Part shown: in pieces, positions 3,574 through 8,795 of the stretch
Layout: each line of letters begins with the position of its first letter
Position numbering within the stretch: the stretch's first letter is position 1
Source of the DNA: a virus
Virus record (IMG/VR): IMGVR_UViG_3300009418_000084
Coordinates: 1 to 28,229 of that record
Reading direction: 5' to 3' (one strand)
DNA length: 28,229 bases
Program-made: the position numbers and the translations under genes
Notes under the pieces: generated by a model
Seen by the model: the letters and a program-made list of their open reading frames with translations, nothing else
What the model was told of the DNA's origin: nothing
Database searches by the model: none

Positions 3574-4346
3574 TCTCGAGATTCTTTCTCTTTCCTTATT
3601 GCTTCTTCCAGAATTTGTGTAGTTCCTCCAAACTCTGGGCATAAATCTTTATACTGACACCAGTTACAAAACATGTTCTGTGTTGGTGGAAACTCAGTCT
3701 TCTTCTTTTTTCTTATCTCCCAAATCTTATTCTGTAGAACAGATAAAAACTGCCCTATTTGAGTTTTTCCATATTTCAAGGAGATAAGTTTATCCATATG
3801 AGGATAATAATGAGCTACCGTAATCTCATCTAAGGGAACTTTGTACATTTTCGATACAGCATAGGCATACATCATAAGCTGTGGATCCTTATACAGGTCT
3901 GTTGAAGTAGCTGCTCTTTTACTTGTTTTGTAGTCGATTACTAGATATTTCCCTGTTTTTCCTTTAACAATCCTATCAATAATGCCATTCATCTTATAGT
4001 CATCCTTCATCTCCACTTCAAATGCTAGCTCACTGCTTACATGTTCATGAAGCTGTGAATTAAACCTAAGGAAGTTAGTTAGGATTTTATCAACTCCCTT
4101 ATCTCTTGACTTAGGGAATTTATAGGTAGACCTGCATTCCTTTGCAATAGTTCTCAACTCTTCTAGAGAAGAAGAGTTGTATCCAAGTTCTAACACTTTA
4201 TGGATATAGGATCCAAACTGCAGTGCATCAGTGTTGGAGTTAGCGTTGTAAGTATTTCTCAAATAATCTATATATTTGAATTTATACTTCTTTTTGCACT
4301 CATAGTACGCTTTAATCTTAGAAGGAGAGACTTTATTTATAAACAT
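3549..4346 (-). CDS. PD-(D/E)XK nuclease with Fe-S cluster, RecB/Cas4-like
   Basis: The 265-residue protein shows the order typical of RecB/Cas4-type nucleases: FGSYIHKVLE with His49, IIDRI with Asp124, VIDYKTSK with Asp138 and Lys140, then DPQLMMYAYA with Gln156 and Tyr160. Cys17 plus Cys227, Cys230 and Cys236 near the C-terminus (FCNWCQYKDLCPEF) match the four-cysteine 4Fe-4S arrangement of Cas4 and AddB. Expected activity is metal-dependent DNA cleavage, probably exonuclease, in recombination or replication. It is not next to any CRISPR array, so a phage recombination role is more likely than spacer acquisition. Its ATG directly abuts the primase ATG on the other strand. Confidence 0.88.
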   Translation of the reverse strand: MFINKVSPSKIKAYYECKKKYKFKYIDYLRNTYNANSNTDALQFGSYIHKVLELGYNSSSLEELRTIAKECRSTYKFPKSRDKGVDKILTNFLRFNSQLHEHVSSELAFEVEMKDDYKMNGIIDRIVKGKTGKYLVIDYKTSKRAATSTDLYKDPQLMMYAYAVSKMYKVPLDEITVAHYYPHMDKLISLKYGKTQIGQFLSVLQNKIWEIRKKKKTEFPPTQNMFCNWCQYKDLCPEFGGTTQILEEAIRKEKESRDQSKIIKG

Positions 4347-5342
4347 ATGAAAATATCCACTACACTTATTAAAGAGTATTTATTAGAAAAGTTCACAGAT
4401 TATAGGATATCTGAGACTGAATTTATAACGAATTCAATATTTTATGATGATCATGGGAAACACATGTCCGTAAACCTAGAGACAGGGTTATGGCAATGTT
4501 TTAGAACTAAAGAGGCTGGGGATTTCATACAACTGATATCTTTTAGGGATTCGATCAGCTATGATGAAGCCTTTAAATCAATCGGTAAAAAACTAATTTC
4601 CGATCCTGGTTCTCTTCTCTATCGTGCCCCCGCAAAGCAAAAAGAGCTTGAAAGTGCAGGTACGTTAGGTGATGAGATGAAAAACTTTAAACCGCTAGTG
4701 GAAATAGACGGAAAATCTGGGAGCGTGTCTGAACTGCTAGCCAAGAGATTTGTAAGGAATAGAAGACTGCCAGAAAGCAAATTTTACTTTGCCTCATCCG
4801 GAAGATACGCCAACAGATTAATCATACCATACGAAGATGAAAAAGGGATATTTTACTTTCAAGCTCGGCACCTAGTAAAGATTGGAATGAAATATTTAAA
4901 TCCAACACATAGGGATCACGGAGTGCGGTCTTCAGAGATTCTTTATCCGTGTAGCTCAAACACATCTTACGTAGTTCTAACAGAAGGACCTATAGACGCT
5001 ATGACGCTTCAATGCGCTGGTGTAAATGCAACCAGTATACAAGGAAGCTCTCTCTCCAGGCACCAATTATTAGAGCTAAAAAATTCCTTTACAGATATAG
5101 TTTTATCTTTTGATAACGATGACGCTGGTATGTTCGGGATGAGAAAATCATTAAACCTAACCAAGTGCTTGAATATGCCAACCCCTTATATTGTACAACC
5201 ACCTAAAAGATTCAAAGATTGGAATGATTTCTATCTCTCCACTACCAAGAGCGGGATTAGGAACTACATCAACGGAAATGTAAGAAAGCTTGATTACAAG
5301 TATACTGTTATCGAAGGATTACGTGAAATGGGTCACTCATAA
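4347..5342 (+). CDS. DNA primase with TOPRIM domain, DnaG/T4 gp61-like
   Basis: From ATG 4347 the product is 331 residues. The TOPRIM catalytic motifs are clear: LTEGPIDAMTL with Glu213, and LSFDNDDAG with Asp256 and Asp258. The preceding segment (residues about 155-180, RLIIPYEDEKG then FQAR) matches the N-terminal RNA polymerase part of DnaG primases. The N-terminal region (MSVNLETGLWQCF, then GDFIQLI) lines up with the DnaG zinc ribbon but keeps only one of its cysteines. It would make RNA primers for lagging strand synthesis. An upstream extension in frame to 4200 exists, but it lies wholly in the opposing nuclease gene, so 4347 is preferred. The 3' end overlaps the next gene by 35 bases. 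Confidence 0.85.
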   Translation: MKISTTLIKEYLLEKFTDYRISETEFITNSIFYDDHGKHMSVNLETGLWQCFRTKEAGDFIQLISFRDSISYDEAFKSIGKKLISDPGSLLYRAPAKQKELESAGTLGDEMKNFKPLVEIDGKSGSVSELLAKRFVRNRRLPESKFYFASSGRYANRLIIPYEDEKGIFYFQARHLVKIGMKYLNPTHRDHGVRSSEILYPCSSNTSYVVLTEGPIDAMTLQCAGVNATSIQGSSLSRHQLLELKNSFTDIVLSFDNDDAGMFGMRKSLNLTKCLNMPTPYIVQPPKRFKDWNDFYLSTTKSGIRNYINGNVRKLDYKYTVIEGLREMGHS

Positions 5343-6344: not shown

Positions 6345-6539
6345 CTACTTCTTTGAGCTTTTCATGGCTTCTTCCTCTCTTTGAGCTTCCTCAACACGCA
6401 TGTCTATAAATTTTTTCCGCTCGATCAAAGTCATAGCCATGACATCATGAAAAGTGAAGCCACAGTTGTGAGCTAGAATATATGCTTCGTGTTCCCCTGC
6501 GTCAGCTTTATGACGCTCTTCTAGCTCACGGAAAAAAAA
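6345..6539 (-). CDS. -1 frame extension of the gp26-like hub gene (GT-like tail assembly chaperone tail)
   Basis: After the slippery run at 6532-6539 the -1 frame stays open for 62 codons to TAG at 6345-6347. It has no usable start: a TGA lies just before the run and the first ATG is about half way in. The peptide reads FRELEERHKADAGEHEAYIL, then AHNCGFTFHDVMAMT, then ERKKFIDM and a charged tail. The pattern (aromatic, small residues, Gly, then MT..E+ ..F) resembles the short T domain of G/GT-type chaperones in other tailed phages. A slip would yield a 339-residue fusion (277 hub residues plus 62). A miscounted T run would instead make one continuous gene. It fills an otherwise empty gap. Confidence 0.65.
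   Translation of the reverse strand, partial: FFFRELEERHKADAGEHEAYILAHNCGFTFHDVMAMTLIERKKFIDMRVEEAQREEEAMKSSKK
6499..6516 (-). other. Hairpin downstream of the slippery site
   Basis: On the minus strand GCGTCA is followed by the loop TAAAGC and then TGACGC, a perfect 6-bp stem. It begins 16 bases after the slippery heptamer, somewhat farther than the usual spacer of 5-9. The loop also contains AGC that could pair with AGCT upstream, so a pseudoknot is possible. It may stimulate frameshifting. Confidence 0.45.
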
Positions 6540-7363
6540 CTTTCATTTATGGGAAGTGTCATAATCTCGTCCGCACTACAATGTTTGCAAATAAATCTAA
6601 CTTCCGTCTTAAGACCTATCTTGTTCGAAAATATTGTTTGTCGCAAGACAGTTATATCTTTCGCTGTTGTTTTTTTCAAAAATCCTTGGATAATTCCTCT
6701 ATCGGAATGTGATTCAAGCTTATCAATAAATTTCCACAAACTATCGGTTAAGGCAGACGGGTTATTCAAAATTCCTTCATCTTTTGCTCTAGGACACCTC
6801 ACATAGGCTGTAATCTCCGAATCAGGCAAAACAACAGGAATAGGATACTCCATCTCTTCATCTGCATAATCTACACCTAGTTTGTCTAATTCAATTGATA
6901 GAGAATTTTCCTCTCCGCATTGCTGACATTCAATACCTACAGGGTACTCGTTGCCATACGAAATCTCTCTGAGTTTGAAGAGTAGGTAATGCTTATCATA
7001 CAGTGACAAGTCCTTATACGGAATTCCTTCTATACACCTCTCCATGAGAGTGCCTACAGCTTTTACGCCTTGATTAAGTTTGGTAACTGATCTCAGGATT
7101 CTTTCATCTTCATAAGTGAAAGGTCTAATCTTAACTTCTTTAATGCCTTCATTGAATACGCCTCTTGAGGGGAGACTAATAGTTATCCACGCCTTTTTAC
7201 TTTCAACATTCCTAAGTAATTCTGAAATAGCGTCTTTAATGTTAGAAGCTTCTTTATTCTCATCTCGCATCATTTGTGGACGTTTTTCAACTTCTGGCTC
7301 TTCCTTTGGGGCTCCCGCAGGCCCTCTCGCTAGATCTATAATGGATTTTTCTCGTTCAGACAT
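6521..7363 (-). CDS. T4 gp26-like baseplate hub protein (zinc-binding)
   Basis: The 280-residue product carries the T4_baseplate (gp26) signature: SLPSRGVFNEG at about 63-73, PFTYEDERIL at 81-90, ERCIEG, and LREISYGNEYP near 131-141. Two CxxC pairs, Cys146/Cys149 (CQQC) and Cys259/Cys262 (CKHC), look like one zinc site. In T4, gp26 is part of the central baseplate hub; in other phages gp26-like proteins may act as tail assembly factors. The ORF ends shortly after TTT TTT codons in a run of eight T, and a second frame continues, so part of the product may be a longer fusion. It starts 46 bases from the divergent uvsW. Confidence 0.8.
   Translation of the reverse strand: MSEREKSIIDLARGPAGAPKEEPEVEKRPQMMRDENKEASNIKDAISELLRNVESKKAWITISLPSRGVFNEGIKEVKIRPFTYEDERILRSVTKLNQGVKAVGTLMERCIEGIPYKDLSLYDKHYLLFKLREISYGNEYPVGIECQQCGEENSLSIELDKLGVDYADEEMEYPIPVVLPDSEITAYVRCPRAKDEGILNNPSALTDSLWKFIDKLESHSDRGIIQGFLKKTTAKDITVLRQTIFSNKIGLKTEVRFICKHCSADEIMTLPINESFFSVS
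6533..6539 (-). other. Slippery heptamer T TTT TTT for -1 frameshift
   Basis: In the reading frame of the hub gene the bases are AG|T TTT TTT|T CC, so the heptamer fits X XXY YYZ exactly. The zero frame then stops after three codons (Ser-Val-Ser). A -1 shift joins the 62-codon extension. The run is eight T in total (6532-6539). Confidence 0.6.
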
Positions 7364-7409: not shown

Positions 7410-8795
7410 ATGAAAATATTTGTTTCAAATATTTACTCGGTTTTAAAGACTGAAAACATAAAACTGAGAAAAATTCTGGAAAAGAGATATCGTGCACGAA
7501 ATCCTGGGTACGAGTTTACTTCTGCGTACAAAAATGGATACTGGGATGGTTACAAAAAATTCTTTGATTCTAAGACAGGAAAATTTGGAACGGGTCTACT
7601 ATCTTCAGTAATAGAAGATTTGGACTATCTAGGACTAAAATATTCTATATTAGACAAGAGGACAAAAGTATCGTATGGCTCTTCTTCCATAGAGAATATA
7701 GAACTGCGTGACTACCAGGAATCACTCATAAAACAAGCTCTGGACTTGAAATCCTGCGTTATAAAAGCTCCCACTGGGTCTGGTAAGACTATCATCCTGG
7801 CGTCTATTCTGAATTCCCTTAAAGGCTATACTGGTCTTGTTTTCTTTAATAAGAAACAACTACTACACCAGACTTATAAATTCTTAACTGAACATGGTAT
7901 AGAGTGTGGAGTAGCTTTTGGTGAGGGAGTTGATATCAAACCACTCACACTTTGTACTATTCAGTCAATAGACAAAGTTATAGATTCCCACCTAAAATCT
8001 TCAGAATTCATAGTTTTTGATGAAATACATGAGTTTTCAAAAGGGAAAGTAGCTTCAAAAGTCTTGAAGTCATTTCCTAATGCTTGTATTCGTATAGGAA
8101 TGTCTGCAACCCCTCCTACAGATAAATTCTCTAAACTATCTTTGGGTTCTTTCCTGGGGAAACAGATAGAGTATGTTACTGCTGAGGATTTAGTGGCGGA
8201 GGGATATTTAACCCCTCCCTCTATTGAAATTATAGAGCTGCCAGACGAGGATCCTATTGAGTATTCCAAATTATCTTATCCAGAAATTTATCAAGCCTAT
8301 ATTATTAATAACAATACGAGAAACGATTTTGTAACAAAAATTTGTAAAAATATTACTTCAAAGCACGCTAAGATCCTTGTGCTCACTAAAAACCTAGAAC
8401 ACGCTAAAACTCTCCAGTCAATGATACCAAATTCTTACAAACTAGAAGGTAAAGATGGTTTATTAGAACGTGAAGAGATTCTAGAGAAATTTGTAAAAGA
8501 GGAGGGCCCTTCTGTCATAATAGGAACTATTATATTTCAGACAGGTATAGACATACCAGAGCTTACCCATCTTATCAATGCTCGAGGATTAAAGAGCGAA
8601 ATAGCAACTATACAAGCTTTAGGTAGAACACTCCGAAAGCACCAGAATAAAAACAAAGTATATATTTATGATTTCTTAGACAATGTGTCCTATTTGGACA
8701 ACCACTCATTATCAAGAATAAAAGCTTATAAATCCCTTAATTTTGATGTAACGATACATGGAAACAAAAAAAGACAAAGAAGAAAAGATAAATAG
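7410..8795 (+). CDS. uvsW: UvsW-type SF2 DNA/RNA helicase
   Basis: The 461-residue protein has the helicase motifs in order: Walker A APTGSGKT (120-127), DEIH box (204-207), MSATPP with SAT at 232-234, TGIDIPEL (motif V) and QALGRTLRK (motif VI). The N-terminal 95 residues (YKNGYWDGYKKFF) match the small DNA-binding region of T4 UvsW. UvsW unwinds R-loops and branched recombination intermediates and helps switch from origin- to recombination-dependent replication. Length is a little below T4 UvsW. The ATG at 7410 has AGGA close upstream, and a TATAAT string lies at 7386-7391 in the 46-base divergent spacer. The end overlaps the next gene by 38 bases. Confidence 0.92.
   Translation: MKIFVSNIYSVLKTENIKLRKILEKRYRARNPGYEFTSAYKNGYWDGYKKFFDSKTGKFGTGLLSSVIEDLDYLGLKYSILDKRTKVSYGSSSIENIELRDYQESLIKQALDLKSCVIKAPTGSGKTIILASILNSLKGYTGLVFFNKKQLLHQTYKFLTEHGIECGVAFGEGVDIKPLTLCTIQSIDKVIDSHLKSSEFIVFDEIHEFSKGKVASKVLKSFPNACIRIGMSATPPTDKFSKLSLGSFLGKQIEYVTAEDLVAEGYLTPPSIEIIELPDEDPIEYSKLSYPEIYQAYIINNNTRNDFVTKICKNITSKHAKILVLTKNLEHAKTLQSMIPNSYKLEGKDGLLEREEILEKFVKEEGPSVIIGTIIFQTGIDIPELTHLINARGLKSEIATIQALGRTLRKHQNKNKVYIYDFLDNVSYLDNHSLSRIKAYKSLNFDVTIHGNKKRQRRKDK

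Follow-up and report, generated by a model that had tools for sequence, protein, structure and literature searches.

The stretch of DNA analysed, hereafter called the window, is the IMG/VR virus record IMGVR_UViG_3300009418_000084 (28,229 bases). Encoded on its minus strand are a T4-like terminase (phrog_2, E 1.5e-47), a portal protein (PF07230, E 3.7e-87) and a gp26-like protein. The latter was matched by the T4_baseplate profile of the gp26/gp51 family (PF12322; E 8.3e-23, 81.6 bits against a curated cut-off of 24.5) over residues 73 to 277 (profile positions 12 to 218 of 219) and, among the PHROGs families, by phrog_150, baseplate hub (E 5.5e-26). The features considered here are the following:

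7363-6521, minus strand: gp26-like gene, 280 aa, proposed short tail assembly chaperone (TAC-N)
6542-6348, minus strand: -1 frame of 65 open codons with the stop TAG at 6347-6345; T-like domain, predicted helical
6539-6532, minus strand: run of eight T (T8)
6539-6533, minus strand: slippery heptamer T TTT TTT, in phase with gp26 (AGT TTT TTT TCC)
6529-6519, minus strand: 5' arm of an 11-bp outer stem, GUGAGCUAGAA, 3 nt past the heptamer
6523-6521, minus strand: zero-frame stop TAG, fourth codon past the heptamer, within the 5' arm of the outer stem
6516-6499, minus strand: inner 6-bp hairpin (6516-6511 with 6504-6499), nested in the outer stem
6478-6468, minus strand: 3' arm of the 11-bp outer stem, UUCUAGCUCAC
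6324-5308, minus strand: next gene, encoding a 338-aa protein and beginning 20 nt past the stop of the extension
2723-996, minus strand: tape-measure-like gene, the presumed client (matched by two families of tail length tape measure protein, phrog_2335 at E 4.7e-7 and phrog_28 at E 7.8e-7)

The 338-aa protein was not matched by any PHROGs or Pfam family at E 0.001, and the profiles of these two collections recognised no tail tube gene beside gp26. Between gp26 and the tape-measure-like gene lie three ORFs on the same strand. The structural genes of the minus strand are interrupted by two genes on the plus strand, a primase-like (4200-5342) and a helicase-like one (7410-8795), of which the former overlaps the end of the ORF at 6324-5308 by 35 bases.

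The 3' end of the gp26-like gene reads ATA AAT GAA AGT TTT TTT TCC GTG AGC TAG on the minus strand. A preliminary description of this DNA had pointed to an in-phase T TTT TTT, to a zero-frame stop four codons further on and to a start-less -1 frame of 62 codons behind a TGA, and all three were found again. The TGA (6545-6543) closes the -1 frame directly upstream of the T run, and the frame is open through the run. Its first ATG, GTG or TTG lies at 6440, inside the core of the conserved domain described below, with none before codon 35. After a slip on the heptamer, 62 residues would be added to the first 277 of gp26, giving a long product of 339 aa. As in chaperone pairs of the G/GT type, the second ORF is out of frame with the first, overlaps its 3' end and lacks a usable start of its own.

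Two relatives (L002 and L003) are identical to the window in this region, with the same T8, stop and extension. The three elements are also present in L004 (81% amino acid identity; same contig as L031) and in L027 and L028 (73-75%; same contigs as L032 and L033). A comparison of the junction among relatives, called for in the preliminary description, yielded eight T, not nine, in every lineage member examined (the window and these five). The T8 and both stem arms are kept in the lineage relatives, while neighbouring bases vary. Among residues that are identical between the window and a relative, the codon is identical as well in nine out of ten cases over the slip site and the 5' arm, against a baseline within gp26 of 111/218 (L031) and 85/195 (L032).

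The 6-bp hairpin named in the preliminary description is present, but the main element, the 11-bp stem enclosing it, had been missed. The structure downstream of the heptamer has a predicted energy of -23.8 kcal/mol (z -2.49), with three of 200 shuffles being as good. The 5' arm is invariant in the six lineage sequences except for its last base, and pairing in the outer stem amounts to 93.9% of 66 cells (six members), versus 29-39% with the arms slid. Six of the 11 pairs never vary, two change from G-C to G-U and three depart only by unpaired cells; a compensatory double change was found in none of the 11 pairs in the six sequences. In L027 and L028 a shifted inner hairpin forms despite sequence change. 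At -1 sites the spacer usually measures 5-9 nt; here it has only 3 nt.

Folding over the 75 bases past the heptamer was pronounced in the window-like class, with a mean z of -1.99 (19 of 20 clusters) versus -0.10 for controls (76 segments). It was somewhat stronger than in shuffles in cyanophage-like loci (mean z -1.26, n = 60, control -0.48; fold statistics for class 3 cover the first 60 clusters). Folding was weak in class 2, a -1 group (e.g. LR756511) in which the zero-frame tail continues for about 9-21 codons past the slip site (mean z -0.64, n = 16, control -0.07), as well as in the +1 class introduced below (-0.79, n = 16, control -0.41). The claim of a hairpin is accordingly limited to the window-like class, and in the lineage of the window the stem is a well-defined candidate stimulator.

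The extension as a T-like domain

Two T-domain profiles were made from sequences outside the window family. With 18 sequences, the -1 ORF ranked first among the 561 stop-to-stop ORFs of the window (E 8.7e-7, next 0.25), and with 142 sequences it did so again (E 2.2e-14, next 1.3). The PHROGs family phrog_634 (baseplate hub assembly catalyst) matched the window extension weakly (E 0.037) and extensions of the cyanophage type at about 1e-30. The structural model of the extension has a pLDDT of 85.6 and predicts three helices. As judged from the profile matches, the extension is a real conserved domain.

A resemblance to the T domain of G/GT tail assembly chaperones had been suggested earlier. 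This stands as far as a T-like conserved domain is concerned. Similarity to lambda G/T was not detectable (profile E 0.03-0.7, hhalign probability 0.2%), and in shuffle comparisons with lambda T the window extension gave p 0.21. Two of 17 T domains fell below 0.05 in such comparisons (L038, 0.004; L046, 0.04). Known G/GT members are also very diverged.

Used alone as a query against phage records, the extension found nothing (E up to 1), so that profile searches were needed. A sequence search of solved structures retrieved two matches (E 0.026 and 0.065), both unrelated by name, and a fold search with the T domain alone gave three rows with E 4.8-9, none of them meaningful. No Pfam family was matched by more than three of 31 T domains, the weak matches being spread over ten families. 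One of these, DUF6760, was weakly matched by three of the 31 (best E 0.011) and may link to other contractile systems.

In three relatives the domain is annotated from a late start as a 'baseplate hub assembly catalyst' of 31-45 residues (L010:4747-4851, L013:2001-2096 and L014:1962-2099), and in L020 and L021 it carries no annotation.

Frame of the T domain and type of slip site

A profile scan of 254 sequences, run with a T profile of 21 sequences picked by eye (the window included), found a gp26 ORF in 250 and a T domain (E<1e-3) in 243. The domain lies in the -1 frame in 222 of these and in the +1 frame in 21, and in none in frame 0. The four without a complete gp26 ORF are L203, L049, L060 and L096. 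Of those without a T domain at this threshold, L127 and L198 end too soon, while L093, L087, L089, L084 and L104 do not; a separate analysis listed a +1 match for L093, L089 and L104, weak in the case of L089. The ends of the gp26-like ORFs of L084 and L087 have no Phe-Phe, and no T domain in any downstream frame.

Twelve loci (L001-L004, L023-L028, L030 and L035), duplicates of others or T4 itself, were left out of the survey. From one set, 70 of 77 loci were analysed, with coordinates entered by hand. Relatives were sampled as the best 80 of 598 and the best 80 of 280, and the sample therefore leans to cyanophage-like loci. A search of cellular genomes with the gp26 of phage SP-15 returned no relative, and nothing is therefore claimed on prophages or injection systems. 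Grouped at 90% amino acid identity, the gp26 proteins form 168 clusters, with the T domain in the -1 frame in 146, in the +1 frame in 16 and absent in six.

An in-phase T TTT TTY with an open -1 frame was found in 133 of the 146 -1 clusters. Twelve further clusters have T TTT TTA/G and hence Leu in place of Phe, so that it is the heptamer and not the protein that is kept. Counted together, T TTT TTN is in phase in 145/146 -1 clusters versus 1/16 +1 clusters (Fisher p 4.7e-19, which, the clusters being related, is not an independent-sample probability). The background of in-phase T TTT TTN in the same -1 genes is 13 in 32,246 codons, and codon use elsewhere is TTT 1020 to TTC 480 and NNT 4475 to NNC 1561. 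The sequence elements and their conservation are direct observations, as is the fit, across the family, between the frame of the T domain and the type of slip site.

In the reading we favour, with a probability of about 0.9, gp26 is the TAC-N, and a slip at U UUU UUU, aided by the stem, gives a minor long form, TAC-NC. The 11-bp stem-loop would hold a fraction of the ribosomes just past the heptamer. These would slip back by one base on U UUU UUU, bypass the UAG four codons on and add the 62-residue helical T domain, yielding TAC-NC of about 339 aa. We infer that the shift occurs, and likewise its efficiency and the chaperone role.

The same fusion would arise if RNA polymerase slipped on the T8, adding one U or dropping two, and so produced a mixed mRNA. 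A run of eight T, as present in the window, L004 and L027/L028, is long enough for this, but six T are too short for efficient polymerase slippage, and 113 of the 133 T TTT TTY sites are T TTT TTC with just six T in a row. The constrained phase of the heptamer and the structured element downstream also argue against transcriptional slippage, which appears unlikely.

Quite improbable is a second account, by which the extension is a separate small gp51-like gene with a start of its own or is reached by re-initiation after gp26. It is so annotated in databases for several phages, and Vibrio phage D495 (L022) also speaks for it. This is the sole -1 cluster without a heptamer; it has no Phe-Phe, and TAATG stands at the gp26 stop (about position 1786), so its T domain looks like a separate gene. 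Four more relatives (L015, L017, L018 and L019) combine the heptamer with an ATG that overlaps the stop of gp26; here, frameshift and re-initiation might both operate. Outside the window lineage, 106 of 145 relatives have an ATG within the first 22 codons of the extension, and in only 17 of the 145 is a start, whatever its codon, preceded by a ribosome-site-like motif. In the window, a start before codon 35 is absent and a later one would cut the core of the domain, which speaks against a separate gene, as does the in-phase heptamer in all -1 clusters except D495. The search for relatives with a start of their own, named in the preliminary description as evidence against its proposal, thus turned up the heptamer nearly throughout, with an overlapping own start in D495.

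Very improbable is a relic, with the frameshift at background level and the T domain decaying: the domain is free of stops in the 146 -1 and 16 +1 clusters, and the codons of the slip site are more conserved than gp26 overall. An artefact, in which the run would really have nine T and gp26 would form one gene with the extension, is hardly credible; homopolymers are error-prone and the window is a metagenome contig, but eight T recur in separate contigs of three diverged lineage members, the same split occurs at the six-T runs, and the split has the opposite direction in the +1 class. A programmed -1 frameshift adding a T-like domain to a chaperone, as first proposed in the preliminary description, is the best-supported reading.

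The +1 class comprises 16 clusters (L006, L007, L008, L009, L076, L079, L082, L085, L088, L090, L092, L094, L097, L102, L103 and L105), among them SP-15, Streptococcus phage GXN1 and many uncultured phages. In 12 of the 16 a CGN codon comes right after the TTT of the site, a context shared by none of the 113 other TTT codons of the same genes. The remaining four have CAC (SP-15), CTA (LR756508) or TAT (L094), or use the first TTT (LIS04). C or T follows a TTT at or next to the site in all 16, so the Phe tRNA in the P site could re-pair in the +1 frame. Phe-Phe is found in both classes; what varies with the direction of the shift is whether a T precedes it and which codon comes next. This class (TTT CGN) is less well known than the rest of the system. 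A literature search found no report of the +1 class in gp26 genes; a 2022 paper on TAC genes of T4-like phages may hold one.

Relation to lambda G/GT and to T4 genes 26 and 51

The model of the gp26-like protein (pLDDT 85.3) was compared with 556 solved chains. The best two, both aligned within residues 57-138, were 3klu (YqbN, which we take to be a chaperone homologue), with Z 4.6 over 80 residues at 3.4 A, and the HK97 tail assembly chaperone 2ob9, with Z 4.3 over 74 residues at 2.8 A. Both scores are low, below Z 8, and the third match had Z 2.4. A Foldseek search with the same model gave E 1.1, which is not significant.

In relatives, gene order points in the same direction, being tube, gp26, extension and tape measure in SP-15, LIS04 and phiM12, as V, G, T and H in lambda. 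As with lambda G/GT, a late -1 shift at the locus of the window would let a single start yield two products, a short one and a long one with a helical C-terminal domain. The locus differs in the slip region, which is GCG GGA AAG TGT in lambda and T TTT TTT in the window, and in the gp26-like protein, which is twice the length of lambda G and has paired CxxC motifs.

The gp26-like protein of the window is thus best read, in the manner of lambda G/GT, as the putative short form of a tail assembly chaperone whose long form would come from the shift. Many tailed phages rely on such slippage to obtain both forms of this kind of chaperone. By this analogy, coating of the tape measure would fall to the G-like part and recruitment of tail tube subunits to the T domain, and both would leave before completion of the tail. 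For gp26, 'chaperone' is the better label, 'hub' being a historical name.

A 2022 paper on T4-like phages, cited in PMC12846349 for poly-T slippery sequences in TAC-N genes, concerns, as far as its title and that citation go, the same system. The part of PMC12846349 available describes a similar TAC locus in Vandenendeviridae/Andersonviridae (phage Adele), where a conserved GTTTTT is the site of the -1 shift. Behind it come a C-terminal domain that lacks annotation and then the tape measure gene; this locus is likened to the window by description only.

In T4 itself, PF12322 matches both gp26 (E 8.8e-64) and gp51 (E 3.9e-52). In gp51 (249 residues) the match covers residues 1-201 and the remainder is the T domain, and phrog_634 matches residues 147-246 at 1e-23. 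As judged from these matches, gp51 is a paralogue of gp26 to which this T domain has been fused. T4 thus resembles the window in that both proteins belong to PF12322 and gp51 shares its C-terminal T domain with the extension, and differs in having two divergent genes where the window has a frameshift.

The preliminary description had stated that T4 gp26 is not known to frameshift. This held in six T4-type phages, in which gp26 has neither the heptamer nor a T domain behind it, but left out that the fusion is carried there as gene 51. The accessible part of PMC5009743 states G-T frameshifting to be conserved except in T4. As far as the portion available goes, PMC3004832 counts T4 gp26 and gp51 among the hub assembly chaperones, gp51 being required but absent from the particle. 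Phage RB43 (L266, 1501-2794) departs from the divergent arrangement of T4: its fused gp51-type gene is directly followed, in tandem, by a gp26-type gene that overlaps it.

A tree built from 92 proteins places the gp26 and gp51 proteins from seven T-even-type phages in one clade (99/94) among the -1 loci, adjoining phages of Vibrio, Cronobacter and Aeromonas that have the -1 layout. Some branches are long, the root is arbitrary, the 26 class-3 clusters had been selected, and gp51 entered without its last 45 residues. The simplest reading of the tree, not a proof, is that genes 26 and 51 arose by duplication from a frameshifting ancestor, and the T-evens appear to make the same two products from these genes.

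For the chaperone locus of T4-like phages as a whole, we consider it more likely than not that the decoding route changed while the products were kept. The routes would be a -1 shift at U UUU UUN in most lineages, a +1 shift at UUU, mostly before CGN, an own start in D495 and the 26/51 duplication in the T-evens, with Phe-Phe kept in most lineages and its codon context tuned to the direction of the slip.

The general idea was published in 2022 for T4-like phages, to judge from the title of that work and a passage citing it, so that the window is a further case of a described kind and the gain for the window alone is modest. In the family, the frameshifting relatives of T4 carry by recoding the fusion that the T-evens carry as gene 51. 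The ORFs of 31-57 residues annotated as 'baseplate hub assembly catalyst' beside gp26 look like tails of frameshifted proteins, which amounts to a correction of annotation. With its pairing of a -1 and a +1 class, the family is a natural experiment in what sends a site forward or back.
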